From Atherix ibis (lineage: Eukaryota; Arthropoda; Insecta; Diptera; Athericidae): a stretch of DNA of 64,000 bases. The notes under the pieces were generated by a model. That model was not told where the DNA came from and did no database searches. It saw only the letters and a program-made list of their open reading frames with translations. Position 1 is the first letter of the stretch; the number at the start of each line of letters is the position of its first letter. Position numbers and translations under genes: made by a program. Shown one piece after another: positions 1 to 46,121 of the stretch. The stretch spans positions 72,837,622 through 72,901,621 of the forward strand of contig OY282606.1 of the NCBI GenBank assembly GCA_958298945.1. The letters are read 5' to 3'.

Positions 1-2178
1 CAGTGAGGAAAAATCATTATTTACTTTGCCAGAAAAATAAGAGAAATTAATGGAACCAGACTATTAGGACATGTACCTCTAATATAGCAATATTACAATA
101 AGATACAAGTTCCTTATTCTTCCTAAGGTAACTTTCTCGTAAGATGAAAAAGAGTTGAAAAAAATTAAAATCACATATTTTTCTACTGAGCCGTATTTCT
201 CTTCCAACTTCTTTTACTATCTTCTGACAATGACAAAAAGAACCAATTCCAAATATGGATATTGATACGAAATCCGAAGTTTTATTGGAATTAAAAGTTG
301 GAAGTTTTTATAGATTTTTTTTAGTTATACTAAAAATCGATTCTAAAATATTTTTGTATAGTAAAAAAAAGGCAGACAAATGCCGTTAACTAAATATCTA
401 ACAAATCTTTTAAGATTTCAAAGCTTTCCGAAAAAAAGCTAAAAAAACCAAATATTTTCCTCTTCACCTATCCAACTCATGAATAAATTATATCAATTCA
501 TATAATTTTATTTTTTGAAAATTGATCTGTTTCTTAGAAATTTTCAGTTATTTTTGACCAAAATCGGTTATTTATTTTCAGTAAATTACGAGCCTATAAA
601 AACAGTAAAAATTGCTTGTTTTCAATTATCGTCAAAGCTTTTTTACTTACTTCGTTTAGTAGTAAAATTTACAAAAGCTTTGACATAACTACTACATAAT
701 GTAACAAATTCAAATAAATTGGGCTGATTTTTTTTAAAATTCTCTATTGAAAATATTGAGTATAAATTTACTATTATACGAACAAGGCCTTAAAAAAATC
801 AATTGATTCAATTTTGAGGTCAAAGACTTTGTATCTAATTGTCCATGTAAATAAAAATGGCTACTATTAAATGGACGTCAATCAAATTTACAAATTTAAA
901 TTTCAATAGAATTAGAATAGTTTACGGTTAAAAAAAAATGTTATTGTAAAAGTATGTCTAATATTTGTAAATAATATAAAAATCAATTTTTATTGAATGA
1001 AATTTAATGATTAAAAAGTAGATAAATAACTCTGAAAATATTGAAACTTTTTTAAGGGAAATAAACAATAGATTCTATTCTGTTGGTTAGTACTCGTATA
1101 AAATTTATTAGACTGAATATGGAAATATATTAACTGAAGTTTGGGGATTATAAAATAAAAGTGAGTCATACTGGCGAACTCATAAAGTGGAAATGAAGCT
1201 CTGGCAAGAATATAAAGTAAGATACAACAAAATATTGGGAGCTTAATCGCTTATCGGGCTCACCCTCGATTACTCTCCTTACCAATAATTTTGTTAAATA
1301 AAATATTCTTGAAATATATAAAAAACTTAGTTAGAAATTGCATGGGTTTAGGCTAAACTGTTCAAGTAAGACCATTGTTTGAATATCGTTAAGACAGTCA
1401 AGCAAAAAATCCTTTAACAGAATATAATCATTCCAATAAAATAGGAATGAGCAGAAGGGGCTTGCACAATAGTTAAACTACCCTTTCTGACTATTTTTGA
1501 AAATTTTATTCGTAACCAAAGAATTTTATTCTTCAGATGCAAATTCTACAAAATATTCACAATTCTCCTTAGTTTTTGTACTTTTTAAAACACAAACTAA
1601 ATTTAACAGTTTTATTTTTCAAATGAATCTAGAACACTTCATGCTATCGTTTATAACCAATAGATGTTTTTTTTATCTACTTGGAATTTTGTGGTATTAA
1701 ATTCAGCAATGCCCTTTTGTGAAATAAGAATTATTTCGACAATCGTTTATGTGGGACTAAAGCACTCCAGACATTTACAATGAAAATGCCAAATTTTTCA
1801 GAACTTCATGTTATCAAATTTAGCTGGAAAAAATACTACGATAGTTTTTCGGAATAAGGCATATTTCAGCCCTAATGAACTCCAGGTTACTGAGTACAGC
1901 AAATATAACATCTGTTGATTATCTTCTCTAATCAAACTCCGATGGAAAAGCTCTAGCAGTACCATTTCAAAATAGGACTAATATAATGTATCAAATCAAA
2001 AAAGGTGAATAAAAACACGCCGGTGTAGATTATGTTAATGGCTCGGATTACAGACAAATTTACCTAATAGGTATCTTCAATTGGAATAAGTGTGTTCAAT
2101 AGAAGTTTCGGTAAAGCGTCCAATTTGCATTAGATTTATTTTTTGCAAATGAAAATACTGCGCAAGGTATTATTTCTA
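1..2178. other. AT-rich non-coding DNA, no gene seen
   Basis: No reading frame here resembles a known protein. The only open frame of note (1497-1700, 67 codons) is low-complexity and typical of AT-rich chance. The stretch lies upstream of the first visible cadherin exon, which starts with an incomplete codon, so it may be intron of that gene or 5' flank. I see no tRNA, rRNA or clear repeat structure. Confidence 0.6.
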
Positions 2179-3090
2179 TTGGGTTGTTCGGAAAGTAATT
2201 TCGTTTTTTTTTATTGCATAAAAATGAAAGACAATTTTCTTATAGTGAATTAATATTTTATTCAATTAAATATTGTCTAGTCTGATCTAATACCCTTTGC
2301 CATCTTTCTGGCAGGAGCATGGTTCCACGCTCATAAAATTTTTGTTCTTTGTTGGCAAAAAACTGATTCAAATGATTTTTGATGTTACCGTCTAAAAAAT
2401 TGTGTAGAGACCAGAATAAATGATAATCGGAAGGTGCTAGGTCTGGAGAGTATGGTGGGTATGGCAGTATATCCCATCCAAGCTCTAAAAGCTTGTGCCG
2501 AGTGGTCAAACTTGTATGTGGTTTCGCATTACCCTGTTGGAACACCATACCTTTCCTATTGACCAATTCTGGCCTTTTTTCTTTAAGGGAATCATTCAGT
2601 TTGTCCAACTGATGACAGTGCACTTCAGAATTGATCGTTCTATTGCTCGGTAGGAGCTCAAAATGAACGATTCCTTTGAAATCCTACTAAACAGATAGCA
2701 TAACCTTTTTTTGATGAATAATGGCTTTCGAAGTGCTTTGAGCCGGCTCATATTTTCTTCTCCAGGATCTTTTGCGCTTAACCATTATTTTAGACAACCC
2801 ATTTCTCGTTCCCAGTGATGATATGCTTCAAAAATGGATCATTTTCTTGGCGTTTGAGAAGCTAATCACATACGTTAATGCGGCGGAACAAATTATTTTC
2901 CGTAAGAAGATGAGGAATCCATATGTCGAGCTTGGAGATTAAACCTAGCCATTTCAAATGATCATGAACAGTTGAATTCGATAAATTTAATCTCTTAGCG
3001 ATCTCAAGAGTTGTTATTCACCGGTTTGCATCAATTAATGCCTTTATTGTGTCTTTATCAGCAAACGAAATTAGTTTCCGACCAACCCAA
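2179..3090 (-). mobile_element. mariner (family I) copy 1, internally deleted
   Basis: The left end reads TTGGGTTGTTCGGAAAGTAA next to a TA, and the right end is its inverted counterpart ending in CCAACCCAA. The body matches the fuller copies at 6293-7538 and 20179-21456, but about 350 bp coding for the transposase N-terminus are missing: the sequence jumps from the region after 3050 straight into the right terminal repeat near 3063. The right flanking TA is not clear. In the C-terminal half the second catalytic Asp of the D,D34D triad is Gly (QQGNAKPHT). The element is non-autonomous and dead. Confidence 0.9.
2258..2623 (-). pseudogene. mariner transposase C-terminal fragment
   Basis: This 121-codon frame is the C-terminal third of a Tc1/mariner-superfamily transposase. 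It has the motif PPYSPDLAPSDYHLF, where the last Asp is the third catalytic residue, and ends in the usual family C-terminus (RWQRVLDQTRQYLIE). The second catalytic Asp is Gly, and a short deletion near HNFLDGNIKNH removes residues present in the copy at 6293-7538. It cannot encode an active enzyme. Confidence 0.9.
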
Positions 3091-6000
3091 AATTATAAAA
3101 AAATTAATATTTCTGTTTGTTTTCAAAGAACTATTATATGCTGATTGAATTTCTATTCAGTGTTTGATACGCCCAAAGACTTAGGACAGTAAATTTACTA
3201 CAAATTTGTTATCTCTGGCTAGGTATTTAAATCAAAGTGCCTCAAGATGAGTATCTTGAGGTAGTAAAACTTGGATCATTTGAATTTTGTATAGGAACAT
3301 TTTTAAATCCAATTTCAGAATCTTCTAAAGCGATGTTCTGGGGGTGTCTAGTTAAGTAGAGCGACGACAGATAGCAGTACGGCTGTCTTATTGAGCAAAG
3401 TTTGCTTATGACCACTTCAAGCGCCAACTTGAAGAAAACAAACGGAATACAACCTTAAAGCTAATCCACTCATGTGCTCGTATACTGCTCAAATGGATCA
3501 CTTTCAGATAGAGATAATTTATATTTATGCATATTGCTTTAACGCACATTTTTAAATAAGACTCTTAGTTATTTAAATTAATTACAATACTAATCTCAGA
3601 TTTTACCCAGAAAATCAAAGTATAGATTTCGATTTTTACATATTCGAAAACTGTATAATAAAAGGTACAATTTTTGACCTCATCGGGAAGTACTAAGGCG
3701 ATCGTCATTTTCTGATCGCAACTACCCGTAATTGTCTGTTTACATTCAATGTGGCACAACAATTTTTTAGTTTTTATCCACCTAGAGCACTCGAACTGTA
3801 ATAAAAATTATTCGAATAATAGTCAAGTATGAACTTTATTTAAATGTATAATTTATTTTTACCGTCCACTTATCTAATTCACGAGTCTTTGGTTTCCGAA
3901 TAATTAAAACACTTTTTAGTCAAACACTTTATTTTCTGAAAATATTTGAACTCATTAAATTATTATTTATATAAATATTCACTTGTTTCACTTCACTCAT
4001 TATTATAATTATATTTTGTTAAATGGAGAAAAAAAACAATATTAAAAAATGTAATCCGCACGAAACGATTTTTACATTCGATATGTCAAAACACCAAAAA
4101 GATAGTTTTAGTTCTATAACTAAAGAATAGATGTCAGGCACAGCAGCTAAAATTTGATTTTTATCATCTTTTTGATTTGTATATTCGTTCATTATTCTTT
4201 GTTTTTATTGACATACAATAATTGTATTTATATTTAACAATTTTTTAAAATAAAACTTTTTTTTCATTTTTAAAGCGTTTAATATACATTTAAAATAACA
4301 GAGTTTGTAGATTAATTTTATGGTAATAGGTGGCTAAGGGGCGGCAGAGAAAATTGTTGGTTCATTGCAATTCCATGGAATTTTTTGGCTTCACTTAAAT
4401 TCCTATTCATATAGGCTGATTATCTATTCTTATACAGGTAACTCTCCTACAACACGGTTTTTATTCTTCAATTATTGTATCCTACAAAAATTAACACATT
4501 TGTAGTTCACATTTGTATTTTTGGCTTTATTTGGCGCCAGGATGAAAATTGTGAAGATCCTTGCGCCGAACAAAGCCAAAAATGCAAACGCAAACTACAA
4601 AATTGTCATTTTTCGCCACAGCAAAATTTACAATGACCTTGTAAGTCCAGCAAACAGATTAAAATAAAAGATATTTTAAGGATGGCAGAAGATGCAAAAA
4701 AAGCTAGCGAAGAAATGGGTTCGGAAAATTACAATATCGTTCGGCTGAAAAAACGATCTTGGGGGAATAAATTCATTAAGCGGACTTTGAGTTAAATGTA
4801 TTTTTAATAGAAATTATTGAATATTAAAAATAGTTGAATATAAAAAAAATATTTCGTTTTGAGAAATTTTCGGAACGCATCCTGTCATTTTATACTGGCT
4901 CCTTGTCTTCTAAAATACAATTTCACATAACGTATTGTTTTCCAGAACCTATCCACGGTGTTATAGGGGGGCTATCTGTGCTCTAAAATTAAGGTTTAAA
5001 TAAGTCATCTTTCACTGGAATACAAAAACTCAATCAGTTTTACTCGTTGCTGGACATTAACTCTATTGAAAATGAACAAGCTATGACTTTTTACAGTATT
5101 ACTAAATTATTAGAATTTTGTCAAAAGAAATATTTTGGTCAATATAAAGAACTTTGGTCAATATGAATACTTGTTTCGTATATTGGCAAACATAGAATTG
5201 GAATCTTTATTTGGAAATTTTGTATTAAATCTGCTTTCTTCTATAAATAAAATATATATTATCGAGACTGTATTACAACCAACAATGCTACTACAACACA
5301 TAGTTAACTGCTCTAGCTTTTATTACATTCAAAATTCTCACATCTATAAAAATTGAAAAATATGGGAACGAAGTTTCTTGCAATGAGTGCTTCATCGTCT
5401 GTTTGTCTTAAAATTTTCACTTCTAACATTATATTCAATTTGACACACTTAACATTTCGTTTCAAAAACACTTTTTGTAGTAAGATTTTGTATACAGAAA
5501 AACATAGAAAAAAACTTGAAGTATTAGCAAAACTGATCCGAAATCATAGGCAGAGCTCTATAAAAATCGTATTCGCCAGACAAGTCGATAATATGCCTCA
5601 TTAAAATGCGGTCAGAGAAATCAACCAATTTAAGAACTCACTGATCATTTTATGTGAGAATAAGCAATTTCGAAAGATGGGAATTTTTTGCCAAAAAATT
5701 TGCATTCAAAAGTAAAAATCTACTCTATTATCGTTTATTTTGCAACTAAATATTACTACTTTTATTTTTACAATTATTACGATTATTATTATTGTTCCAC
5801 TTTTTATAATTAATTCCATGAATCCGTCCAGTCTTGTCTTATACTTTTCTGAGGTGATATAATATTTTCTTCGACATTAGCCATTGCTCGTGCATAAATA
5901 TTAATTCTACTTGAAGCCGACTATTGTGTAACATAAGGAAATCAGCAATAAAATTATAGCAACAAATTATGGCACACTAAGTAAAAGTAAAGTTTTGGTG

Positions 6001-6292
6001 AAATTATATAAAAATTTCATCTAATTTAACTTAATTACCTATGCCCATTGCTTGATGTTGAGTGATTTTTAGTGAAGTATATATAGGAAATTAATTAATA
6101 AACTACAAGGAAATGTAATGGCTTTTATTCAAAATGAAATAAAACTGGAAAAATTATACTATTTAAAGAATTGTAATTGTTAAGAAGTGAAAAATGTATT
6201 TCATCTTGACTAATAATGAATTCAAATGCAATTTTGCTACAAATATTAACTGACGCCTATGGTTTCCTTATTTATCTAAAAATTCTTATTTA
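3091..6292. other. AT-rich non-coding DNA with one long hairpin
   Basis: No recognised gene. The open frames at 3242-3427, 3565-3762, 5135-5356 and 5353-5604 have no recognisable domain. A 37-codon frame at 4682-4795 (MAEDAKKASEEMGSENYNIV then a basic stretch) has more even codon use than its surroundings, but nothing supports it as a gene. The structured element is the inverted repeat at 4499-4602, listed separately. Confidence 0.6.
4499..4602. repeat. long inverted repeat (hairpin), arms about 45 nt
   Basis: The left arm 4499-4543 is nearly the reverse complement of the right arm 4557-4602, with about 13 nt between them. Both arms carry TTTGTAG at the outer end, ATTTTTGGCTTT in the middle and a GGCGC near the loop. 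A few mismatches are present. It could be a foldback transposon remnant, a hairpin-RNA source or a template-switch palindrome. Confidence 0.85.
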
Positions 6293-7538
6293 TTGGGTTG
6301 TCCGGGAAGCAATTTCGTTTTTATTATATAAAAATGAAAGACAATTTTCTTATAGTAAATTAATATTTTAATCAATTAAATATTATCCAGTCTGATCCAA
6401 TACCCTTTACCATCTTTCTGACAGTAGCATGATTTCGCGCTCATAAAATTTTTGTTCTTTCCTGGCAAAAAACTGATCCAAGTGATTTTTGACCTCCTCA
6501 TTTGAATTAAACGTTTTATCGTCTAAAAAATTTTGTAGAGACCAGAACAAATGATAATCGGAAGGTGCTAGGTCTGGAGAGAATAGTGGGTGTAGCAGTA
6601 TATCCCATCCAAGCTCTAAAAGCTTTTGCCGAGTGGTCAAACTTGTATGTGGTTTGGCATTATCCTGTTGGAACACTATACCTTTCCTATTGACAAATTC
6701 TAGCGTTTTTTCTTTAAGTGAATCATTCATTTGTCCAACTGATGAAAGTATACTTCAGAATTAATCATTGTGTTCCTTAGTAGAAGCTCAAAATAAACGA
6801 TTTCTTTGAAATCCCACCAAACAGATAGCATAACCTTTTTTGATGAATATTGGCCTTCGAAGAGCTTTGAGCCGGTTCATTTTTTCTGCTCCAGGATCAT
6901 TTGCACTTAAAATTGTTGTAGATAGCCCATTTCTCGTATCCAGTGATGATGCGCTTTAAAAAAGGATCATTTTTCTTGGCGTTTGAGAAACAAATCACAA
7001 ACGTCAATGCGACGGCACAAATTTTTTTCCGTAAAAAGATGAGGAACCCATATGTCAAGCTTTGAGATCAAACCTAGCCATTTCAAATGATCATGAACGG
7101 TTGAATTCGATAAATTTTGTATCAATTAATGCTTTATTATGTCTTCATCAGCTTCAAGTGACCTTCCAGAACGTGGTGCATCTTCGAGATCAAAATTGCC
7201 GGATCGAAATTTTGCAAACCCGTTTTGAAACTGGCGCTCACTAAACACATCTTCGCCATACACATCGGATAATTTTTACTTCGTTGAAGAGCATTTTTAT
7301 CTTTTCTGTAGTAAATAAGTAAAATATGCCGAAAATGCTGTTTTCCACTTTCCATATTTAAAAGGGTGTCAACCAAAAACTACTATGCAGAATCAATGAA
7401 ATTTTTTCACAAGCAAGCCTTGCTATGTCGGCTACCAAAATACATATGATTATGCGGCTTAAGTGTGAAGTTGGTTGTGAAAAAATACAATTAAGTCCTC
7501 TGTTGGGAAATAACGAAATTACTTTCCGGACAACCCAA
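6293..7538 (-). mobile_element. mariner (family I) copy 2, full length
   Basis: A 1,246-bp element with inverted ends TTGGGTTGTCCGGGAAGCAA (left) and TTGGGTTGTCCGGAAAGTAA (right), directly flanked by the TA target duplication at 6291-6292 and 7539-7540. The transposase runs on the - strand. It inserted so close to the cadherin that its right end lies 132 bp upstream of the exon starting at 7671. It is the best-preserved member of the family here for catalytic residues (the second Asp is retained), but its frame is broken by indels. Confidence 0.95.
6368..7355 (-). pseudogene. mariner transposase, frameshifted (family I copy 2)
   Basis: The presumed start is the ATG at 7355 (MESGKQHFRHILLIYYRKDK), followed by a frame-disrupted helix-turn-helix region. 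The catalytic D,D34D core is visible at 6407-6730: QQDNAKPHTSLTTRQKL, then SPDLAPSDYH, with 34 residues between the two Asp. The product would bind the terminal repeats and perform cut-and-paste into TA. Several frameshifts and a late stop break it. A decayed transposase is the only reading I support. Confidence 0.85.
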
Positions 7539-7670
7539 TAAATGATCGAAATGACAAAAAATGTATATACTCGTAGATGTTTTTCCAAAAAAAAATGAAT
7601 AAAATACTTTCAAAAAATAATTGGTCTTATATCAAAATCTAAAAATTTTCTCTTATTTATTATCTCGTAG

Positions 7671-8311
7671 GAAGCGATCCAGAAGGTAGTACACTACGAT
7701 TCAGCATATCTGGCCCAGTATTCAATGTGGATCGGGATACTGGAGTTGTTCGCTTGCAGCAGGAGCTCGACCGTGAAACTCAAGATGTTGTCGAAGTGGT
7801 TATAAGTGTAACTGACGAAGGTGTATTGGGTACAGAACCAAACACAGTTTCGTTAAGACGTGAAATACCCATTAGAGATTATAACGACAACCCACCGACA
7901 TTTATTGGTCGTCCGTATACAGCAAGTGTTAGTGAATCGACTCCCGTTGGTAGTATTATCGATGTCAAACCACAAATTATCGTTATCGATAAAGATGAGG
8001 GGAAAAATGCCGAAATTAAATTGTCATGTTTTCAAGATGTAAATAGCGAAAATGATGTATGCGAAACGTTTGAAATTAGTTCGGAAAAGACTTCGGAGGG
8101 TAATTACACAGCAACCTTGACACTCTTAAAAATGCTGGATTTCGAAACAAAACCTTCTTACATTGTGACAATAATGGCAAAAGACGCTGCAACAACAAAC
8201 CAATTGACTGCGTATGCAACAGTTTCCGTTAACGTAATTGATATACAAGATCAGCCGCCGGTCTTCACAAATGCTCCATATTCGGCTACGATTCCGGAAA
8301 ATACGCCAGAA
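7671..8311 (+). CDS. Cad74A: cadherin exon 1 of those visible (rest of EC1, EC2, start of EC3)
   Basis: The acceptor is TATCTCGTAG at 7661-7670. The exon begins with two bases of a split codon and then reads SDPEGSTLRFSISG, the middle of a cadherin repeat, so at least one coding exon precedes it. Linkers DYNDNPP (near 7877) and DIQDQPP (near 8240) end the first two repeats. The donor GAA|GTAATA at 8311/8312 opens a 67-bp intron; without splicing the frame stops at once. Confidence 0.9.
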
Positions 8312-11300
8312 GTAATATTTTCATTTGCATAGCTAACCAAAATTAAAATTAAATAATAAAAACTTTATTTGCTTTTAGGGTGTGTCCATTTTAACTATAT
8401 CTGCAACAGATGGCGATTCCGGAAGCCCATTACCAATTCACTTGTCGATTGAAGACGATGAGCCAGGACATTTTAGGCTGGTACCATTTGGTAAACCCGA
8501 AGAAGGAAAAGCAGTTCTTATGACCACCAATATTCCTCTCGATCGTGAAAGTCAAGAGATCCAGCAAAATGGCGGTGTATACACCTTCACCGTTAGGGCA
8601 ACCGAGCTTATTAATAATCAAGTACCATCAGATTCAGCAACCACAAGAGTGACGATTGTTGTTACTGACGTTGATGACCATGCCCCAGAATTCAATAAAA
8701 ACTCTCTAAATATTTCTATACCCGAAAATTTGGAAAAGGATACACCATTGCCGGGTCTTAGTATTTTTGTTATCGACAAGGACATGGGAAACAACAGCCG
8801 TTATGATCTCTCGCTTAGAAATGTTATGAATGCTGAGAATATTTTTTCGATAAGTCCGTCCAACGGTGAAGAGCGTACTCCTGTCATTGTTAAGATAATG
8901 GATCCATCAAAGCTGGACTATGACGTCACTGATGAAAGCCTACGAACAGTAGTCTTCGATTTAATTGCATCTATTGACGGTCGCGAATTAGCAACCTCAC
9001 GGATTACTATTCAACTCCAAGATGCCAATGATAATTCACCAATCTTCTCAAAACCGTATTACAGCCTGAAGGTGAAGGAAAATGAGGATATTGGATTTAA
9101 AATTGCGGACATTGCCGCAACAGATAAGGATTCTGGTCTTTTTGGCCAAGTAAGCTATGTTCTGAAGGGATTTGGCTCTGACAAATTTTCAACAGACTAT
9201 AAGCAAGGTGGAATCTTTGTTTATAAGCCACTTGACTATGAAAAGCAAACAAGCTATAGTCTAACCATTGTGGCGATTGATGGAGGTGGAAGAGAAACAA
9301 ATGCTAATGTTTTTGTTGATGTTATCGATGTTAATGATAATTATCCTATTTTCGAGAGTCAAGAGTATACGCGAACTGTACGTGAGGGTGCTACCGAATT
9401 TGAGCCACAATTTTTCGTAAGAGCAACCGATGATGATGGTCCCACTCAAGGCGGAGGAAATGTAACATATGCTATAGAGACGGACAATAGCATTTCTGGA
9501 AACGTTTTTGCTATCAATGAAATTACAGGCGAAATTACAATAAGACGACTAGTAAAGTCAATGGATACTGAGCGAGGACAGTACGAACTGACAATATCAG
9601 CTATTGACCATGGTAAGTTATAAATGGTTTTTTGTTTGTTTGAAAGAATTGTTTTCAATTTTTTGTTAAATCATATTAGGTCATCCACCATTGCGAAATA
9701 CAACACGCGTTTTGATACGTGTTGGTATATCTGGAAATCAACGGCCAATATTTAAAGGACATTTTCGCAACATTGAAAGACTTCCAGTGGTTGGTCCACC
9801 TAGTTACCGTGTGTCTATTCCAGAAAACGCTCTGCCAGGATATAATGTTACAATGGTCTCTGCATCAGATCCAGACGGTTTAGACTCCTTGCTACGATAT
9901 AAAATACTCGAAACGCATGATAATTTTGTTATTGATGAAATGTAAGTAGAAAAATTGGATTTATATTAATATTCCCACCAATTGGTTGAGCAGAAATGCA
10001 CCTTTTGATGAAGATTCAAGTTACATAAAAAAATCCATCTCATTTAAGATGTTGAATTTTAGATAAAAAATCATTTTTAAATTTATTTTTTTTAGATTTA
10101 TTTTAAAGTTATAGTATATAAAGAACAAAATTTTTGATAAACATTTTTGTATATGAAAATATCGCCAATGTAAATATTGGATGTATTTTAAGGAAAAAAT
10201 AATTTGAACATTTATCTTCCTCGACCTGTATTGTGCCTCTTCTCTGGCTACTATGTTAATATACAATATTTCTAAAACTTTATTAACAAATTTGTATAGT
10301 CTGACACTCAATAAAATTTTGTCGAAATAGTTGTTTCCAACATGCTTCACAAACATGACAAATATATATCATAATTTTTAAGAAAAAGTACTCTGAAAAA
10401 TATTTAATGGCAGTATCTAATATAAATGTGCCAACAAGATTATTTTCATCAGTACGTATATGATCGTTAGAATTTTCAAAAGAATCTCCTTTCTCTTCGA
10501 GCAAATTTCTGTCCATCATTATGTTTTTTTGAAGTTTTCACTCAACGGTCCTCACCAACGGTCACTCACAACTGCCACTCATAACAGTCACTCACAAATG
10601 TAACTCAGAACTGTCACTCACAACGATCATGCACAAATGTCCTTCACCAACGGTTTCGTAAGCTTATTTAGCATCTATACACGTAAAGCAGTGTCACTCA
10701 CAACTGTCACCCACAATGGTCACTCAACACTGTCACTCTGAATGGTCACTCACCAACAATCAGTCAGCAACAGTCAATAATCAACAATTACTAAGAAAAT
10801 TTAGCAGCTACATACGTACAGCAGTATCACTCCCAACTGTCACTCACAACTGTCACCCACAATGGTCACTCACAACCGTTACCTTCAATAGTCACTCAAC
10901 ACTGTCATTCAGAATGGTCACTCTCCAAAGGTCACTCAAAAACGGTCACCAAGCAAATATAGCAGCTATAGACGTAAAACACTGTCCAATGGTCACTCAC
11001 AACTATTCCTTACAATGGTCACTCACAAATGTCACCCACATTGGTCACTCAACACTGTCACATAGAGTGGTCATTAACCAACAATAACTAAACAAATTCA
11101 GCAGGTATACACGTAAAACAGTGTCACATTTACAACTGTCACTCACAACTGTCGCACACAATGGTTACTTCCAATGGTCACACATAAGCTAATTTAGTTT
11201 TTATACACGGAACGCAGTGTCACTCACAACTGTCACTTACAATGGTCAATCACAAATGTCCCCCACATTGGTCACTCAACACTGTCACACAGAGTGGTCA

Positions 11301-14300
11301 CTAACCAACAATAACTAAACAAATTCAGCAGGTATACACGTAAAACAGTGTCACATTTACAACTGTCACTCACAACGATCACGCGCTAACTAACTACTAA
11401 CTAATGGTCACTCACCAAAGGTCACTCAAAAACGGTCACTAAGCAAATTTAGCTGCTATGAACGTAAATATATAATATATTAATTTAAATAAATTCAAGT
11501 ATAATATATAAATAATAAATTAAGGAACTATTAACAAAAATAGTATTATTAATTGTAAATAATAAAAATTAAAGCAACTTGTTCCCTTTTTCTTATCAAG
11601 AAATACACTTGCTTAAATATTTTAAATTGTTTGAGTAAATCCCTTAATTTTGAAAAACATTAGAAATATAAAAATCGATCACGATTTCCTATTTACAGTT
11701 GATAGAAGTAAAAACATTAGTGAAATAGGTGCGAACGAAAAAAATAAATGACTATGCATAATCATAACATAATCTCATTTTTAAATTTTTCCAATATGAT
11801 TTTAGATCATATTCTTGTGTTGAATTTTCTTCCATCGATCGCAAAAATTAAATATCCTTTTGTATTTGGGGAAGGGTTACTTTGCAATGATCGTACCCAT
11901 ATGTATGGGTACGAAGCAAAAAATGATGAAACATTCTTGCATTTGACACGTTCGTTTCTCTTTAGAAAGAAATCAATACTGTTTCTTTATAAAAGTAGAG
12001 TATAGCATCTGGGCTTAGTCTGAAAAATCAAGAGAATCCTTCCTTCCATCTATTTCCTAGTCTTAAGATTTTTCGGTTCCAACCAACACTTCCAAGTAAA
12101 CGAATCCAACGAATTCTCTAATATCTCTTCGATATTTGCTGGTGTTCCACAGGGAAGTATAATTGGGCCCATCTTCTATAACATTTACACATCCGAAATT
12201 CTGTCCAAATATCTTCTTTGCTATATAAGTCGATGATACGGTCTGCCCTGCATATAGCGAGAATCCCCAACATGCTTCCGAAATTCTCCAAACCCAAATC
12301 CAAACCCTCCAGAACTGGTTTACTGGTGGAGAGTAAATGTTAATGAACGTGCATCTATCCATGTGACTTTTACTCTCCGCTATGAACCATGTCCTTCCAC
12401 AAACTTTTATGGCACCGAAATACCTCAACCCACCGAAGTTCGGTACCTAGGACTGAACTTAGACTAACGCTTCACATGCAATACTTTAAAGACAATACCT
12501 AAAAAGACGATATCTACAACTACTTCGACTTCTAGACAAACGTTCTCAACTTGCTATAGACAGCAAAGTAGTTTAATATAATGCGCTACTGAAACTGGTA
12601 TGAACTTACAGACTAGAACTCTGGGTTGCTACTAAGCCTTCTCATTACCGTCGAATCCAATCCTTTCAATCATAAATACTCCGTAAAGTTGTCGACGCTC
12701 CTTTTTATGTTCGCAATAATATTATTCAAAGTGATCTTGAAGTTCCATTTATTTTTGATGTGACTGTGTCTCGTTATAAAAATTTCCATTATCGGGTCTC
12801 TAATCATAAAAATCACCTTGTTCAAGAAATATTCTTCACTTTCCTAAAAACACCCGTCGAAGACTTAAGCGCCACTGGTCGCGTGATTTACTAAAATTCT
12901 GAGTCTTAACATAAGCGCACGCTAGCAGGAGATGCTTCAATGGACAATCTATTATATAAATCTGCTTGTTACTGTGTTGTAGTTGTAGATATCTGTAAAA
13001 ATTAAAAAAAATGCTTTTCTTGATTTTGGGCTGATACTAACGTTATAATGCATCGAAATCATGCGTTCGATCAAATCAACCGGGAATATAGGCGATAATT
13101 TCATATACAAAATTTTTGTTCTACTTTGGAATTCTTTACATATTATTACTCAATGCTTAAACTTTAAAAATTAACCTAGAATTGCCATTAAAATATGACA
13201 TCTTCAATTACAGTTCAGGACTTATTCAAGTATCACCACAAGCGCATTTGGATCGAGATTTAAATCCAAATAGCTATCAAATTGTTGTTAATGCCGTTGA
13301 TGCTGGATATCCAATTCCAGAAACAGCAACAACTATTGTGTATGTCAAAATTGAAGATGTCAACGATAAACCACCGAAATTCCAACAACCAAGCTACGTT
13401 GCATATATTTCCGAACGAACTCCGAATGCTACAGAAGTATTAAAAGTCACCGCCACTGATACTGATGTCAACTCGAACCTAACCTATAGTATTAAAGAAC
13501 CGATCAAAGCCACAACAAAATCGGGTGTTGCCATTAACGTTGGAAACCTCTACAATCCAAAAGAAAGTTTCAGAATTAACAATAAGACCGGACAGATTTT
13601 CGTAAATAGTTCACTTCGACATGATTTAGCTGCTGTTATTTCACTCACTGTCGAAGCAAGAGATCTTAACGCTGAAATTGATAAAGATCAGCAATTTGCA
13701 ACTGCAGAAGTAACTATATATGTCCAATCGTTTAAGGATACGAATCCAATATTTCGAAATAAGGGATGGACAAGTTCGAATCCAATTGTCAATATAAAGA
13801 TCAAGGAAGAGATGCCAATTGGGAGTACATTATTCACTTTAGTGGCAGATGATCCTGTCTCGAAAAGACCAATAAATAGTTTTGAGCTAGTTGAGGCAGA
13901 TCCAATGCATTTTTTTGAACTGAACGATAGAACAGGCGAAATATTACTACAGAAACGGCTTGATTACGAAGTACTAAATCAGACCAATTTCGAATTGCAA
14001 GTAAGAGCATCGAGTAATGATGGTGGAAGAAGTACAATGACTAAAGTTAACGTCACCGTTGAAAATGTTAATGACAATAGTCCACAATTCGAGCGACAAG
14101 ATTACCGAGCAACTTTAGTTGAAAATAAAAAGTATCCCGAAAAGGTTATTACCGTACGGGCCACAGACAATGATGCGGTTCTTACGGATTTAGATAAAAA
14201 GCTTGGTTATCATCAGATCATGTACTCATTGTCCGGAGAGAATTCAATTTGGTTCGAAATAAATAATATTACTGGTGAAATAACTGTTGCAAAAAATCAA

Positions 14301-16932
14301 ACTGTTGATAGGGAACGCAGTTCTTTAGTCAAGTTGACCGTTAAAGCGGAAGATTCGGCTGGGAAACGAACTGAATCCAAAATGGACACAGCTCAGTTGA
14401 TTATCGAAATACTCGATGTAAATGATAATCCACCGCAATTTAGTCAAAAAGGATATAAAACTGTAATCCCCGAAAATGCACAACCCGACTCCGTGGTTAT
14501 TAGGATGATGGCTACTGATTCAGATGAGGGCCCAGGAGCCGAAATTCGATATGAATTCCTAAGTGAAGGTGAACTTAATGGTTTTCTTAAAATTAACTCC
14601 ATGACTGGAGAGATTCGAACCAAGGCTCCTTTGACCGGTAAAGGTCGACCAGAGCCCTATGAACTTGTAATTCGAGCACAAGATAATGGTGGCCAAATTC
14701 CGAAACAGCGTTCTCTGTACAGCGATGCGACCCTGATCCTTTTCATTGGTGATGTTAGTTCAAATGATGGTATCCCATTCTTTATCATTCCGAAAGTTGG
14801 CCAAGTTGCTAATATATCTGAGGTAAGTAATCTTTACATCCTATTTTTTTATTTTTTACAGATACGATCTTATGTAGATTCAAAAGTAAAAGACTTTGAG
14901 CGTCCTAAGCAAACAAACACTTGTGAACTACGTGTTTGTTTGATCTAACTTTATCCACCGATCACTTAAATAACTTTTCACGTTTATAATTCCCGACTTC
15001 ATTCGTCGTTCACTCTACTAATACCCGATTTTAACCGGTTCGTCCTGAATCGTAGCGCTCGTATTTATACTGCTCCGGCGTGCTTCTAGAATATTCCGGA
15101 ATAGAACTCTCTGAAATATTCTGGAGGCACTCTTCTAGAAAGTTCTAGAACACGCCCAAGCCATGTTACGTCGTAACAATATTGAAATATTTTTTGAAAA
15201 TAAAATTGATTATTTGTAAATTATTTTCCCTAGAATGCTACAATTGGATCGCCTGTATTTCAAGTAATTGCAAGTGATCCAGATACACCATCTACACCTG
15301 CTGGTACTTTGATTTATCGAATCCAAGAAGGGACATCTGACGCAAAAGCATTTCATATTGATCCAGTCAGTGGACTTATAATTACCATGGTTCAACTTGA
15401 TCGTGAGACAAAGCAGAATTATAATATAATTCTGGAAGTATCAGACAATGGCAAGCCACCTCAATCAGTTACAAGAATATTGAAAATAAACATTTTGGAT
15501 ATTGATGATCATAAGCCACAATTTATACGAGAAGTTGTAAGTATCAACACTTTTGTTTTTATTACAATTTACAATATTTGTTGAATCGTTAAAACTGATA
15601 TATTATACTGTTTGCATAGGATGCCCAACCTATGGAAATGGTTATCCGTGAAGAGGAACCAATTGGAACAATTGTGGGTAATTTAACAGCCATCGATGAG
15701 GATATTGATGTAAATGGTGCTATCGACTATATGTTCATCGATGGTAATCAGGAGGATATATTTACCATAATCAGAACGAATGATAGCAGAGCAATTATCA
15801 AAACTAATAAAATAATCGATCGTGAAGTGGTAGAATCGTATTTGTTAACTGTGAAATGTTTCAAGTACGGAAAAGATACCAAAGAAGTTCCACGAAACGA
15901 GTATAATAGGTACGACCTGTCTGAGATTATGATCCTCGTGAAAGTAGAGGATATTGACGATCATTTACCGAAATTTACAGACAAAAATCCTACAGTCGGT
16001 GTAAGGATAAATGTTCCAATTGATACTTCGATTGTAACTATAAAGGCCACTGATCAAGATCCCGATGCACTTCCAATTAACTATTCATTCAAGAATATAA
16101 CATTCGTTCCACAATTTTATAAACGTGGCAATATTTCAAACAGTTCTGCCAAGGATCTTTTTATTCTAAATAATAAGACTGGCGAAATCAGAACTGGTGC
16201 TAGTCTATCGAATTTTGTCGATGGTTATTTCGAGATCGCAATAATGGCCAATAACTCTCATAAATCGAAGCGAAACTCTGTTGCTAAATTGAAAATATTC
16301 GTTATCCGGGATAAATCACTCTTGAGATTTATCTTCACAAGACCGGCTACTGAAATCCGTAGTCTTGCATATCAGTTTCGAGAAAAATTACAAACTCAAC
16401 TAAAACCTATGAAACTCGAGTTACACATCTTCGATACTCAAGTACTAACTAAATCGGATCATAGTCTAGATTTTAGTGCGACCAGCTCTTGTTTCCAGCT
16501 ATTCCGTGAAGGATCTGCACTACCTCTTAACGAAATGCAAAAAATCATGAATTCTGAACAAGTTAAACAAGAACTAATCGGCACATTCAGTGAATACGGC
16601 GTAAGTCAAGTTGACTCATGTTCCGTAAAAAGGAAAATGCCTACATCGACATTTATGTCATCAGCGGGCACATGGTTAGTAATTTTGGCGGCAATTATTG
16701 GTATTGCTGCCATTGCAGTCACGTGCACGGCTTGCTGTTTGGCAAAAAGGTATGCCCATTCGATAAATTTGTTGAATCTCACAAAAATGCAACGTGTTTC
16801 TAATCATTCGCAATTTTCAATTTCAGATTCAAAAAACAAACAAAACGATTATTATCACCTCGAGTACCACCAGAACCATTTGGTGCAGGAGCACCAGTTT
16901 TTTATTCAGAACCCATCTATGGACCATTGTAG
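7671..16932 (+). CDS. Cad74A: non-classical cadherin, probably Cad74A orthologue (5' end missing)
   Basis: This is a large single-pass adhesion protein of the plasma membrane, read across seven exons: 7671-8311, 8379-9612, 9680-9941, 13214-14822, 15234-15536, 15620-16749 and 16827-16932. All introns are GT-AG, phases agree at every junction, and the splice gives 1,760 codons plus stop without interruption. About 13 extracellular cadherin repeats are visible, with Ca2+-binding linkers such as DYNDNPP, DANDNSP, DVNDNYP, DVNDKPP and DVNDNPP; some linkers are degenerate (DIQDQPP, SFKDTNP). A membrane-proximal domain without linkers (residues about 1540-1695) resembles those of long non-classical cadherins. 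One TM helix lies near residues 1701-1722, then a ~36-residue tail with no beta-catenin-binding region. The first codon is split, so signal peptide and early EC1 lie upstream. The symbol rests on size, short tail and the nearby neurogenin-type bHLH; Cad87A, Cad89D or a midgut cadherin are alternatives. Confidence 0.85.
8379..9612 (+). CDS. Cad74A: cadherin exon 2 (EC3 to start of EC6)
   Basis: The acceptor TTGCTTTTAG precedes GGTGTGTCC in phase 0. The exon holds three full cadherin repeats with linkers DVDDHAP, DANDNSP and DVNDNYP and matching internal DRE/DYE and ATD motifs. It ends in SAIDHG at the donor G|GTAAGT. The intron 9613-9679 is also 67 bp. Confidence 0.92.
9680..9941 (+). CDS. Cad74A: cadherin exon 3 (degenerate linker, start of next repeat)
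   Basis: The exon completes HPPLRNTTRVLIRVG and crosses a linker that has lost the acidic Ca2+ motif (ISGNQRPIF), then starts a new repeat with SIPENALPG. The donor AT|GTAAGT at 9941/9942 leaves two bases of a codon. The matching acceptor is at 13213, not the nearer AG at 13179, because only 13213 restores the frame and gives VIDE-I-SGLIQVSP. Confidence 0.88.
10536..11470. repeat. 13-bp minisatellite with interspersed ~36-bp higher-order unit
   Basis: The core is about 13 bp, GTCACTCACAACT, alternating with variants such as GTCACCCACAATG and GTCACTCAACACT. It runs for over 900 bp. Seven times the array is interrupted by a conserved element containing TTTAGCAGCTATACACGTAA, beginning near 10660, 10795, 10951, 11091, 11187, 11320 and 11441, so a higher-order period of roughly 96-156 bp is laid over the 13-bp one. 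The 123-codon open frame at 10716-11087 is a by-product of the repeat. Confidence 0.92.
12060..12960 (+). mobile_element. Jockey-type non-LTR retrotransposon relic (RT C-terminal half)
   Basis: On the + strand, with several frameshifts, the sequence reads the RT motif AGVPQGSIIGPIFYNIYTSE near 12138-12197, then VRYLGLNLD near 12440 and a C-terminal stretch (WTYRLELWVATKPSHYRRIQ, near 12600-12660) typical of Jockey/CR1-group reverse transcriptases. The YADD region falls where the frame is broken. The - strand open frame 12063-12428 over the same place is a shadow. The relic is 5'-truncated, as is usual for target-primed insertion. Confidence 0.8.
13214..14822 (+). CDS. Cad74A: cadherin exon 4 (largest; about five cadherin repeats)
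   Basis: A 1,609-bp exon starting T|TCAGGACTT. It holds linkers DVNDKPP (near 13358), a degenerate SFKDTNP (near 13735), NVNDNSP (near 14060), DVNDNPP (near 14415) and a divergent DVSSNDG (near 14755). It ends NISE at the phase-0 donor GAG|GTAAGT. The predicted heat-shock-type promoter in the next intron would transcribe this exon in antisense. Confidence 0.92.
15062..15069 (-). promoter_or_regulatory. TATA box (TATAAATA) of the antisense promoter
   Basis: On the - strand the eight bases read TATAAATA, a canonical box, followed by CGAGCGCTACGATTCAGG, which resembles the TATA-to-start region of fly Hsp70 genes. Transcription would start about 25-33 bases further, near 15036-15046. Confidence 0.7.
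15084..15101. promoter_or_regulatory. heat-shock element, four perfect units
   Basis: TTCTAGAATATTCCGGAA is four alternating NGAAN pentamers in exact 5-bp register, the consensus binding site for trimeric heat-shock factor (HSF). An extra GAA follows at 15104. Confidence 0.85.
15133..15150. promoter_or_regulatory. second heat-shock element, four perfect units
   Basis: TTCTAGAAAGTTCTAGAA is again four alternating units in perfect register. Two such sites within 67 bp are very unlikely by chance. An imperfect GAA/TTC pair (15113-15121, one base out of register) lies between them. Confidence 0.85.
15234..15536 (+). CDS. Cad74A: cadherin exon 5 (one cadherin repeat)
   Basis: A 303-bp, phase 0-0 exon coding 101 residues that correspond almost exactly to one cadherin repeat. 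It begins NATIGSPVFQVIASDPD and ends with linker DIDDHKP and FIREV at the donor GTT|GTAAGT. The following intron is 83 bp. Confidence 0.92.
15620..16749 (+). CDS. Cad74A: cadherin exon 6 (last repeats, membrane-proximal domain, TM helix)
   Basis: It begins DAQPMEMVIREEEP. Linker DIDDHLP (near 15955) separates two repeats. A linker-free extracellular region with two Cys follows, comparable with the membrane-proximal domain of PCDH15/CDHR-type cadherins (inference). The TM helix WLVILAAIIGIAAIAV begins near 16675 and is followed by CCLAK. The donor is AAG|GTATGC at 16749/16750. Confidence 0.9.
16827..16932 (+). CDS. Cad74A: cadherin exon 7 (short cytoplasmic tail)
   Basis: After the 77-bp intron (acceptor TTTTCAATTTCAG) the frame reads R-FKKQTKRLLSPRVPPEPFG, continues Gly/Pro/Tyr-rich, and stops at TAG 16930-16932. 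I prefer this to the read-through frame (stop at 16945) because it starts with a basic stop-transfer cluster and the splice sites are good. No catenin-binding motif is present. Confidence 0.82.
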
Positions 16933-16996
16933 ACATACACTGTAAACAAATCTTTCACTTCATCCTCAATCATCGGAAATGAACAATCAACATTCA

Positions 16997-17006
16997 AATA
17001 AATAAA
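16997..17006 (+). other. polyadenylation signals of the cadherin gene
   Basis: Overlapping AATAAA hexamers lie about 65-75 bases after the stop codon, the right distance and strand to end the cadherin transcript. Weaker AT-rich candidates follow to 17250. Confidence 0.6.
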
Positions 17007-18370
17007 AAAATTTAAGTTAATCAACTACTTTGTACGAAAATAGTGTCAACAACAAAAAATACGACTTGTGATATAATACTCAATTTGCCTATTTATGTAA
17101 TTGTAAAATGTTTTTTTTTTAAGATTTAATTTTATGATTTTAATTTGTTTTGAATAATTTAGTTTTAATTTACAAATGAAAAATTATTAAGTAGTATAGC
17201 TTTTTTTTTATTATTATAAGAAATTATATTTTAAGAAATTAAGGATTAAGAGAGTGAAAATATATTTCTTTTGACTAAAAGAAAGGAATTTGCTGGTTTT
17301 TTTTTAATGTGATAAGAAATTAATTCAATTGTTATCGGTTTTAAGGTTAGGTTTTTGTCTTTGCTTAACAGATGATCGGTCCGCTGCAGCTATCCTACTG
17401 TTTATTTTGGTGCAGTTTTCGGTGTGGTTCCATGCTTCGTTCAGTAGAACCGGCGGCCATTATGTCCGTTTCGGGTTGTTGTCTTTGATTGCTTGTTTTC
17501 CTTCCAAAATCTGGTATTGATAGTTCCATGGTACTAATGACTTTTTCAGTTGTTTTTTCCGCATTTTTTTGTTAAGGAAATTAAAGTAAAGCTGAAATTT
17601 GAAGTGATTTTTAGGAATTTGTGTAGGACAATGCTTCATTATGATTTGAACTTACAACCCCTTGGTACGTTACTGGTCAAACCCAACTGGAAAAACATAG
17701 TACGCGGTAGTTTATATTATATGAATCGCATATTTTTCCAAGAACTTAATTATGGCATGATATGTTATATGTCAGAATAATTGATTAACTTAAGAAGTAT
17801 CTACTTTTTTGTGAAAAATTGATACTGGTAACGATAAGCATTCGAAACCGTACCGAAATTGTTTAAAGTGGCAATCTCCATTACAAAAGACTAGATACAT
17901 AGTTTTTTTTTGTTAATTAGAGCCTGACTAAGAAATTAGTCTATTCTGAAACGTTTTTTTTAATTTTGTCACATTACAGTTATTTTATCTTAAATTAATA
18001 AGAAGGAGCTTTTCATCCATTACTGTGCTACTGCATCTCGTAGTACTTACAATAATATTTTTAACAAATTTGAGGTCATTGCTTTTTTTAGAAGTTTTTT
18101 GCGGAATGTGGTAGATGAAAATTGCTAAATAAAAACAGGTTAAGAACATTGCTACGACGATCGAAATTGGAAAACTTGGTAGAACGCGAAATACTAGTTC
18201 TTAAGTCCATGTCGGTTAGAACATAGCTTTATGCATTAAAAATTTATTATTAAATGTTTTTTTCTGTTTTCGAGAAGTCCATGTAATTGTTGGTAACGTT
18301 TGTTGAATTGAGTTACATTGAGTCTCACACTTTTTTATACTAAATTTTCAGCTAATAGTTACACATTTAC
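17007..18370. other. 3' flank of the cadherin gene, no gene recognised
   Basis: AT-rich sequence. A GC-richer patch near 17335-17520 gives open frames on both strands (+ strand 63 codons; - strand reading MAAGSTERSMEPHRKLHQ) that I cannot identify; it may be a transposon scrap. The frame at 17550-17780 has no recognisable domain. Confidence 0.55.
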
Positions 18371-34903: not shown

Positions 34904-35927
34904 TCAAGCTCGATTCAATTGGCGATGCTCTAACTTTTTTAACCCGTCCAAAAAATACATTTTCTCGGGGGAAGTAAAATAGGCCTCCGTGGCGACGATG
35001 ACCTCCTCATTCGACCCAAATCTATTCCCGGCGAGTGATTTTTTCATGTTTGGAAACAAAAAGTAGTCACAGGGAGCCAAATCTGGAGAGTACGGTGGAT
35101 GGGGCAGCAATTCGTAGCGCAATTCGACCAATTTGGCCATGGCGACGGCGGAGGTGTGAGCCGGCGCGTTGTCGTGGTGGAACAGCCCAATATTGGGCCG
35201 ATTTGACGTCGAATTGAGTCTTCAATTCGACGTCAAATCGGCCCAATAAGTCAGCATAGTAGCGCCCCGTGATTGTTTTACCCTTCTCGAGGTAATCGAT
35301 GTGGATCACACCTTGTGAATCCCAGAAAACGGTGGCCATCATCTTTCCGGCCGATCGAACAGTCTTCGCCTTCTTCGGAGCACGTTCGCCGGGTGAAGTC
35401 CACTGTTTCGACTGTTCCTTGGTCTCTGGTGTGTACCAGTGAATCCATGTTTCGTCGATGGTCACGAAACGACGCAAGAACTCCGCTGGATTGCGCTGAA
35501 ACAGCGCCAAACACGTCGCCGATGTGGTCTCACGGTTGCGCTTGTTTTCCGGTGTGAGCAAACGCGGCACCCATCGCGCCGACAGCTTTCTCATGCCCAG
35601 TTCTTCGTGTAGAATATGATGCACCGTTCCTACTGCGATGCCCACAGTCTCAGCTATCTCGTGAACCTTCAATCGACGGTCTGCCAACACGAGATCGTGC
35701 ACTTTCTTAACGTTTTCCTCCGTAGCAGCCGTTTTTGGGGCACCTGGGCGTGGCTCATCAAAAACCGACGTGCGGCCACGAACAAACTCGTTGAACCAAT
35801 TCTTAACGGTCGCCATCGAAGGAGAAGAGTCACCATACACAGCATCCAAGCGATCTTTGATTTCGCTGCGCGTTTTCACTTCTAAAAACAAGAATCTAAT
35901 CACCAAACGATATTGTTCTTTTTCCAT
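34904..35927 (-). pseudogene. mariner transposase, disrupted by a palindrome (family A copy 1)
   Basis: The start is the ATG at 35927 (MEKEQYRLVIRFLFLE). The N-terminal paired helix-turn-helix region is intact, as is the first catalytic motif TIDETWIHW. At 35191-35248 a 27-nt inverted copy has replaced the sequence coding for the stretch before the second catalytic Asp and shifted the frame, so HHDNAPAHTS is read out of frame. The third motif PPYSPDLAPCDYFLFP is intact in 34904-35140. A small deletion near 34920 also changes the C-terminus. Confidence 0.92.
35191..35248. repeat. perfect 27-nt palindrome created inside the mariner
   Basis: The arms 35191-35217 and 35222-35248 are exact reverse complements with spacer GTCT. 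The right arm is native transposase sequence (LLGRFDVEL); the left arm is its inverted copy. The sister element at 61131-62422 has unrelated coding sequence (for KKRPRFAKKKV) in its place, so this copy gained the palindrome after they diverged. Confidence 0.95.
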
Positions 35928-36107
35928 TTTTGTGCAACCGACCGACACGCTCGCTTTCAAAGGCTCTCACAACAAAACTAATGAAGGATTTCTACTGAAA
36001 CTTTGACAGTAGGCTACGAAAAGAATGTACTGCACGATGGTAAATTTTTTTTGTGACAGCAGTTCCATCGGGCGGTGAGGCTAAGTACTTGTTGAATGAC
36101 CCTCGTA

Positions 36108-37367: not shown

Positions 37368-38349
37368 CCGCCATTGTTAAAATATAAAATTATTAAATGC
37401 AAAATTAGGGGCATCGGACGTAAGACTCATGCCGAGGATCCAAAACCCTAGCTACGCCACAACGGAATGAAGATCGCTTAATTTAAAAATAAAACCGGAC
37501 TCACCGCTTATTTTAATAAGTTTTCTTAAAAGTAGCTATAAGTATTTTTTATTATTAAATTTAGAGATATTTACTTCGATGTAGAGCCTTTTTGGCAACT
37601 GTCCAAAGATTTTTAATAGTGTTAAGAACACAAGTAACTGATCTACGATAAATGATTAAACTATCAGTGTGAGTTGAATGGGTTTGTTGTTTTACCGCCA
37701 TTGTTAAAATATAAAATTATTAAATGCAAAATTAGGGGCATCGGACGTAAGACTCATGCCGAGGATCCAAAACCCTAGCTACGCCACAACGGAATGAAGA
37801 TCGCTTCATTTAAAAATAAAACCGGACTCACCGCTTATTTTAATAAGTTTTCTTAAAAGTAGCTATAAGTATTTTTTATTATTAAATTTAGAGATATTTA
37901 CTTCGATGTAGAGCCTTTTTGGCAACTGTCCAAAGATTTTTAATAGTGTTAAGAACACAAGTAACTGATCTACGATAAATGATTTAACTATCAGTGTGAG
38001 TTGAATGGGTTTGTTGTTTTACCGCCATTGTTAAAATATAAAATTATTAAATGCAAAATTAGGGGCATCGGGCGTAACACTCATGCCGAGGATCCAAAAC
38101 CCTAGCTACGCCACAGCGGAATGAAGATCGCCTAATTTAAAAATAAAACCGAACTCACCGCTTATTCTAATAAGTTTTCTTAAAAGCAGCTATAAGTATT
38201 TTTTATTATTAAATTTAGAGATATTTACTTCGATGTAGAGCCTTTTTGGCAACTGTCCAAAGATTTTTAATAGTGTGTAGAACACAAGTAACTGATCTAC
38301 GATAAATGATTTAACTATCAGTGTGAGTTGAATGGGTTTGTTGTTTTAC
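37368..38349. repeat. tandem triplication of a 327-bp unit
   Basis: Three head-to-tail units begin at 37368, 37695 and 38022, each starting CCGCCATTGTTAAAATATAA and ending GGGTTTGTTGTTTTA. The period is exactly 327 bp both times. Units 1 and 2 differ by about three bases, unit 3 by about fifteen. It is non-coding. The near-identity implies recent unequal exchange, or an array that an assembler could have mis-sized. Confidence 0.97.
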
Positions 38350-45065: not shown

Positions 45066-46121
45066 ATGTCTTCATGTTATAGTGGAGGATTAGATGATCG
45101 TTCTTTTGAATTTGATGATTCATCATTCGATAGCGGTTTCGAGAAGAGTTTCGAAACGGAATTTACATATACACCTCGGAAACTGTTATTCGATTCGCCA
45201 GACTATCTCTCGCAGCATAGCAATATAACAAAATCAGTAGAGAGTAGTTCAGATTCAAAGACCGATGATGATTTTACACCGAAGCTTGGCACCCAAACAT
45301 CGACGCCAACGAAAAAGGATCAATCAAAGCCGAAACGAAAGTATGCTGTTGGTAAGAATCGTATGACCCGTTCTCGAAGTCCAACTCAAATAATAAGAAT
45401 CAAAAAGCACCGACGGATGAAAGCCAACGATCGGGAACGGAATCGTATGCACACTTTAAATGAAGCTTTGGATCGACTTCGGTGTGCCCTGCCTACGTTC
45501 CCAGAGGATACGAAGCTGACAAAGATCGAGACACTTCGATTTGCCCACAATTACATTTTCGCAATGCAGCAGGTACTAGAGAGCGGCGGCACTGTACACC
45601 TTGATATGGAGAAACTACAGAGCATCACCCTAAGCGGCGATAAAATCACTAAGGAACTCTTTGACACAATGTTTGCAAATCCGACTTCATGCCAAATGGC
45701 TGGGCCAGGATTCTCCTCTTGTGATTTCTTAAGCAGCATACGACAATATGGACAAACTATACAACAGCCGATAGTCGAATCACCTCAATTTGCTCAGCAT
45801 AATTACGAACTCTTCAAAGGATCTTTCGATTCAGCGTTGAACGGATCTTATCCTCCCATACAACATCACCAACGTCAGCCAATGACGCAAAATCACCACC
45901 AGCATCAAAATCAACATCAAATATCGGGCATCTATTCCGGCCAAACAGGCAACACCCACACTCAATATAATAGAAATGATAGTTATTTGAATCAATATTC
46001 AACAAATGGGGAACATATCAATAGGTTACATCAAAATAGCAGCTTTTATGCACAAACACCACCGTGGAAGGATTATAATGAGCAGATCGTTAATAATTAT
46101 GGACAGTATCCAGCACTTTAG
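45066..46121 (+). CDS. tap: neurogenin-family bHLH transcription factor, probable tap orthologue
   Basis: A single-exon gene of 351 residues. The start ATG at 45066 follows AAAAT and an in-frame stop upstream. Residues 1-95 are acidic/Ser-rich ([20 protein letters not shown]). A basic stretch ([12 protein letters not shown]) precedes the bHLH at about residues 114-172: basic region [19 protein letters not shown] with the neurogenin/NeuroD Ala-Asn and Arg residues, then a short loop [20 protein letters not shown]. The C-terminal 130 residues are Gln/His/Asn/Tyr-rich and probably disordered. Such factors dimerise with Daughterless/E proteins and bind E-boxes in neural precursors; fly tap acts in subsets of neurons. 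The basic region and LESGG after helix 2 fit tap better than atonal or achaete-scute groups. No paralogue is visible nearby. Confidence 0.9.

Follow-up and report, generated by a model that had tools for sequence, protein, structure and literature searches.

A candidate Hsp70-class promoter copy in antisense orientation within a cadherin intron of the fly Atherix ibis

In the Hsp70 genes of Drosophila, heat-shock elements (HSEs) are located a short distance upstream of the TATA box. At 87C, the alpha-beta repeats at the Drosophila Hsp70 locus produce heat-shock transcripts in which Hsp70 promoter sequence drives a non-Hsp RNA. A study of HSF binding in Drosophila places 57% of HSF sites in genes and approximately two-thirds of those in introns, with altered transcription for about 10% of the genes associated with HSF (PMC3021535). 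Reports on Caenorhabditis indicate that HSE-bearing Helitrons rewire the heat response (PMC6927752) and that the induction of a Helitron RNA is HSF-1 dependent (PMC6765114). In D. mojavensis, the Hsp68 gene is described as relocated by an inversion, with an HSE apparently dragged from its coding region (PMC3355041). Transgenes that include the promoter and leader of Hsp70 undergo repression by Hsp70 piRNAs in the Drosophila female germline (PMC5972414).

Here we describe a block of approximately 300 bp located in a cadherin intron of A. ibis, within a 64-kb window that constitutes the whole stretch of DNA analysed. None of the open-access matches listed describes, in the portions available, an Hsp promoter that lies antisense in a cadherin intron. 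The reading that we favour, with a probability of roughly 0.55, treats the block as a displaced Hsp70-class promoter copy with a partial leader, which is oriented antisense to the cadherin gene and would function by the mechanism proposed below. The odds given for the various readings are not mutually exclusive, and a transposon origin is compatible with an active promoter.

Heat-shock elements and core promoter

Two perfect four-unit HSEs are present on the minus strand, a distal element at positions 15133-15150 and a proximal element at 15084-15101, such that the block twice exhibits an array of at least three inverted nGAAn units. When four alternating GAA/TTC units in 5-bp register are scored at every position of the window, both elements score 12/12. 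This score is reached nowhere else in the 64 kb, and the two sites are separated by 49 bp. The next-best score is 10/12, which occurs at 16 starts across the whole window. In 300 windows simulated with an order-3 Markov model derived from the window itself, the expectation is 0.02 perfect four-unit HSEs per window, and a pair of such elements no more than 60 bp apart was observed in none of these simulations.

A weak five-unit HSE is located between the two perfect elements (15103-15127, minus strand) and carries 12 of 15 core bases. Five-unit scores of at least 12 are found at 11 starts in the window, six of which are outside the block, and therefore this middle element adds little. The original prediction listed the same three elements. 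Its two perfect HSEs are borne out at the positions given above, and the weaker one between them is indeed present, but its score is near background.

The region spanning 15072-15161 forms an imperfect palindrome of approximately 90 bp (69.6%) with CACGCC oriented outward on both flanks and a TATA box on the minus side only. In an anchored test, CACGCC on both sides of the palindrome was recovered in 8 of 20,000 trials. The best free alignment of the two arms adopts a different register, and an equally good alignment was obtained for 83 of 5000 shuffles. A bidirectional promoter was considered on account of the palindrome and rejected, because inspection by eye revealed no TATA box on the plus side.

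The TATA box of the block, TATAAATA, is located at 15062-15069 on the minus strand, 14 bases from the proximal HSE, which places it near and downstream of the HSEs on the same strand. By itself this sequence is common in the window, with 13 occurrences on the plus strand and 12 on the minus strand. Its surroundings on the minus strand resemble those found in Drosophila. Specifically, CGCCGGAG at 15073-15080 is identical to the bases that precede the TATA box of Drosophila Hsp70 in PMC5972414, and downstream of the TATA box GCGCTACG at 15051-15058 is in register with GCGCTTCG of Drosophila Hsp70.

The D. melanogaster Hsp70 core promoter as printed in PMC5972414 served as the reference for a flank test, devised post hoc, that compares 11 upstream and 24 downstream positions, excludes the TATA box itself and permits a gap of at most 4 bases. 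In this post hoc test, the flanks of the block are identical to the Drosophila core at 22 of 35 positions, the best result among 201 TATAAA sites in the window (mean 8.4, sd 2.5). The other 200 sites match at 14 positions at most, and none of 200,000 random flanks (GC 0.42) reached a score of 22. A plain local alignment to the same core gives the block a score of 27.0 versus 28.0 for the plus-strand stretch at 9,600-9,700 (1276 stretches), and we attribute the latter score to a CAAACAAA-type run. With a longer, approximate Hsp70 reference, the block scores 40.5 versus 40.0 for the best other stretch (822 stretches in all), and none of 1000 resampled versions reaches 40.5, their best being 40.0.

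Because of the rarity of the HSEs, the position of TATAAATA and the flank match of 22/35, the TATA region is very likely to be a real Hsp70-class core promoter. As judged from sequence, this class assignment appears well supported for the core promoter and not so for the leader. The original prediction of a heat-shock-type promoter whose elements are ordered and spaced like those of fly Hsp70 promoters, and which points antisense to the cadherin gene, is supported, and the core match strengthens it.

Host gene, block boundaries and predicted transcript

The intron that bears the block spans 14823-15233 on the plus strand (411 bp, phase 0) and has canonical ends of the form GTAAGT...CCTAG, with the donor GTAAGT at 14823 and the acceptor AG ending at 15233. 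The cadherin frame is open on both sides. The large exon preceding the intron, which the original prediction numbered exon 4, extends over 13214-14822 on the plus strand, with its start assigned by eye at the acceptor ending at 13213. Four Cadherin domain stretches (Pfam) are present in the ORF at 13182-14948. The cadherin frame continues, by frame reading only, through the exon directly 3' of the intron (15234-15536), and cadherin domains (Pfam) are also found in the ORF of the second exon 3' of the intron.

Three other introns of this gene measure 67 bp (9613-9679), 83 bp (15537-15619) and 3272 bp (9942-13213), the last being laden with repeats. The 411-bp intron is approximately five to six times the length of the two short ones. 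Its length alone is no proof of an insertion, because the third of these introns is far longer. The GC content is 0.25 in 14822-14870, rises to 0.40 in 14871-15178 and falls to 0.15 in 15179-15233, with the central value of 0.40 being ordinary for the window, where 208 of 1274 stretches are equally high. These steps in composition and the size of the intron fit a scenario in which approximately 300 bp was inserted into an intron originally about 100 bp long. The putative inserted block would thus occupy 14871-15178 on the minus strand, with both edges drawn from composition only.

Within the 3272-bp intron, degenerate repeats of 13 bp and 26 bp (CAACTGTCACTCA type) take up about 900 bp in several pieces at 10543-11440, and a remnant at 12050-12800 (plus strand) reads VPQGSIIGPILYN and by eye resembles a non-LTR reverse transcriptase. 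Farther away, mariner-type transposase sequences with Pfam matches to Transposase_1 and the Mos1 HTH are located on the minus strand at 35067-35960 and 47111-48007. Mariner-type remnants with Transposase_1 matches in minus-strand frames are found at 2258-2779 and approximately 6697-7344, and a plus-strand sequence at 61759-62358 is of mariner type by ORF resemblance only. The window also contains a 327-bp unit arrayed three times in tandem with 98% match (37368-38349), diverged tandem repeats of 184-211 bp (60099-60721), and a bHLH ORF of 351 codons with an HLH domain (45066-46121; Pfam). Presumably, this ORF resembles Neurogenin/Tap. The cadherin gene, the bHLH ORF, the mariner-type elements and the Hsp70-like core all point to an insect host, most likely a fly.

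By analogy with the spacing in Drosophila, transcription from the block would begin at 15037 on the minus strand. The predicted leader spans 14871-15037 and includes a 24-codon ORF from 15002, which is the only ATG-initiated ORF of at least 20 codons ahead of the first AATAAA. An A-rich leader is present, as the original prediction stated. However, its likeness to an Hsp70 leader is not separable from chance, in that 295 of 1000 resampled leaders score equally well against an approximate reference. The first minus-strand AATAAA past the predicted start is located at 14848-14853, approximately 185 nt after the start and still within the intron. This signal precedes the large exon, and therefore an intron-confined RNA of about 200 nt would be the simplest product. 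The proposal that an RNA runs through the large exon in antisense is not supported by this arrangement, and the suggested control of the cadherin gene by a switch, dsRNA or siRNA is likewise unsupported.

A hairpin with an 11-bp perfect stem and an 11-nt loop can be drawn at 14910-14942 on the minus strand. Stems of this kind occur at seven places in the window (22 starts), and thus the hairpin may be due to chance. The RNA corresponding to 14830-15037 folds no better than its shuffles (z -0.11; 85 of 200 shuffles fold equally well), and the window has no match in Rfam at the gathering threshold. One miRNA match coincides with the HSE array but falls far below the gathering threshold (17.1 bits versus 100; E 3.7), and it was rejected as an effect of the palindromic HSEs. 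We also considered a reading similar to hsr-omega, in which a short ORF is followed by tandem repeats. This was prompted by the 13-bp array at 10543-11440 and was abandoned, as no link was found.

No Pfam domain is detected at E ≤1 in the three minus-strand frames of 9001-17999, and the three minus-strand frames of 1-9000 have no HSP70 match, yielding transposase, DDE and HTH matches only (E ≤0.1). Therefore, no protein product is apparent. In accord with the original prediction, no heat-shock protein frame follows the promoter in these frames, and the downstream HSP70 coding sequence that an Hsp70 gene would have is absent from them.

We propose that an insect Hsp70-class promoter and part of its leader were copied in antisense orientation into what was a short cadherin intron. 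On heat stress, the two perfect HSEs would recruit HSF trimers, and RNA polymerase II would fire from approximately position 15037 along the minus strand. The first poly(A) signal, in the same intron, would most likely limit the product to a short non-coding transcript of about 200 nt with its one 24-codon ORF. Transcription termination changes during heat, and on this basis some read-through into the large exon might occur under these conditions. The effect on the cadherin gene is probably small or none. Although the anatomy of the block is sound, its function is a proposal that is unproven, and the small fraction of HSF-associated Drosophila genes that change expression (only about 10%) calls for caution.

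Alternative explanations

The block could instead be an inserted solo LTR, MITE, Helitron or other short element with an Hsp70-like heat-responsive promoter, one of many copies, and we regard this as possible but doubtful. A sequence of approximately 300 bp that includes a promoter and a leader and lacks a coding region has the contents of an LTR, remnants of mobile elements are located nearby, and HSEs have been documented in the Helitrons of Caenorhabditis (PMC6927752). The right edge of the block coincides with a palindrome, TGTTACGTCGTAACA (15164-15178), and the block is bracketed by an 8-bp direct repeat, TATTTTTT (14850-14857 and 15188-15195), and by an 18-nt inverted repeat with 78% identity (14847-14864 and 15188-15205). 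However, these bracketing repeats consist of T-rich or A-rich sequence, and chance may account for them. Three candidate TG..CA pairs of the LTR type are present, one at 14873-15163 with 4/5 duplicated bases and two at 14937-15163 and 14941-15163 with 4/4 each, but none is located at the edges defined by composition. At those edges there is no convincing target-site duplication, LTR end or terminal inverted repeat, and inspection by eye revealed no Helitron ends. Furthermore, the 64-kb window contains no second copy of the block, and the only strong match of the block to itself comes from the palindrome formed by its HSEs. Exact pattern scans of collections that hold no insect genomes returned no stretches for most patterns. 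One pattern returned 53 viral stretches, none of which shows the GCGCT register or is preceded by a four-unit HSE in the 200 bases upstream.

It is also conceivable, if unlikely, that the HSE cluster is an HSF-bound intronic site that makes no transcript of its own and either enhances or represses expression or is neutral. Such intronic sites are frequent in Drosophila (PMC3021535), but a binding site alone does not need a complete TATA box and an Hsp70-like core at the right distance and in the right orientation, as are found here.

We consider it quite improbable that the locus is a stress-controlled antisense switch, in which a heat-induced RNA crosses the large exon and represses the cadherin gene by interference or dsRNA. 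The orientation of the promoter and its distance to the exon would suit this arrangement, and a Drosophila gene is reportedly silenced by transposon-induced antisense RNA, to judge from the title of Puig et al. 2004. Against this, the AATAAA at 14853 comes before the exon. On the antisense strand, the first match to any of five donor patterns is GTAAGA at 14185, within the antisense of the exon, and thus gives no hint that the leader is spliced to a site beyond the exon. More improbable again is a scheme in which a captured Hsp70 promoter and leader give rise to heat-induced antisense RNA that enters the large exon and lowers adhesion, while the cadherin pre-mRNA, carrying the antisense of an Hsp70-type leader, could pair with resident Hsp70 transcripts or make small RNAs against them. 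Finally, it is scarcely credible that HSE-like and TATA motifs came together in the intron by chance, for although TATAAATA alone is common (25 sites), the four-unit HSE expectation is 0.02, the close pair arose in 0/300 simulations and the flank match in 0/200,000 random flanks.

Comparison with known systems

If the displaced promoter copy that we favour is active, it would represent a natural heat-shock promoter parted from its gene and placed antisense in a developmental adhesion gene, and it would offer a testable example of how stress-responsive promoters move. If it is silent, the block would be the molecular fossil left either by a duplication of Hsp70 or by a mobile element responsive to heat. 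Given that Hsp70 piRNAs repress transgenes with the Hsp70 promoter and leader in Drosophila, the block might also be a target of small RNAs.

As in D. mojavensis Hsp68, an HSE apparently lies apart from its own coding region, although the D. mojavensis HSE is now located upstream of another Hsp gene (PMC3355041). The Helitrons of Caenorhabditis constitute, as the A. ibis block may, a mobile block that puts HSEs beside unrelated genes, and heat-induced non-coding RNA is a feature of these elements (PMC6927752, PMC6765114). In contrast, the A. ibis block has an Hsp70-like core promoter and, by eye, shows no Helitron ends. The intronic HSF sites of Drosophila resemble the block in that a cluster of HSF motifs resides within an intron of a non-heat-shock gene (PMC3021535). 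To this the block adds a TATA box and core promoter, and binding by HSF is here a prediction.

With the Drosophila Hsp70 promoter, the block shares the series CGCCGGAG, TATAAATA, three bases, GCGCT, one base and CG (PMC5972414). The HSEs are near the TATA box in the block as well. It differs by three extra bases ahead of the TATA box, by a leader that is not alignable beyond chance, and by its location inside an intron with no Hsp70 coding region downstream. Like the alpha-beta units of 87C, the block places Hsp70 promoter sequence ahead of non-Hsp sequence. However, those units are repeats at the Hsp70 locus, whereas the A. ibis sequence is a single block in a cadherin intron.
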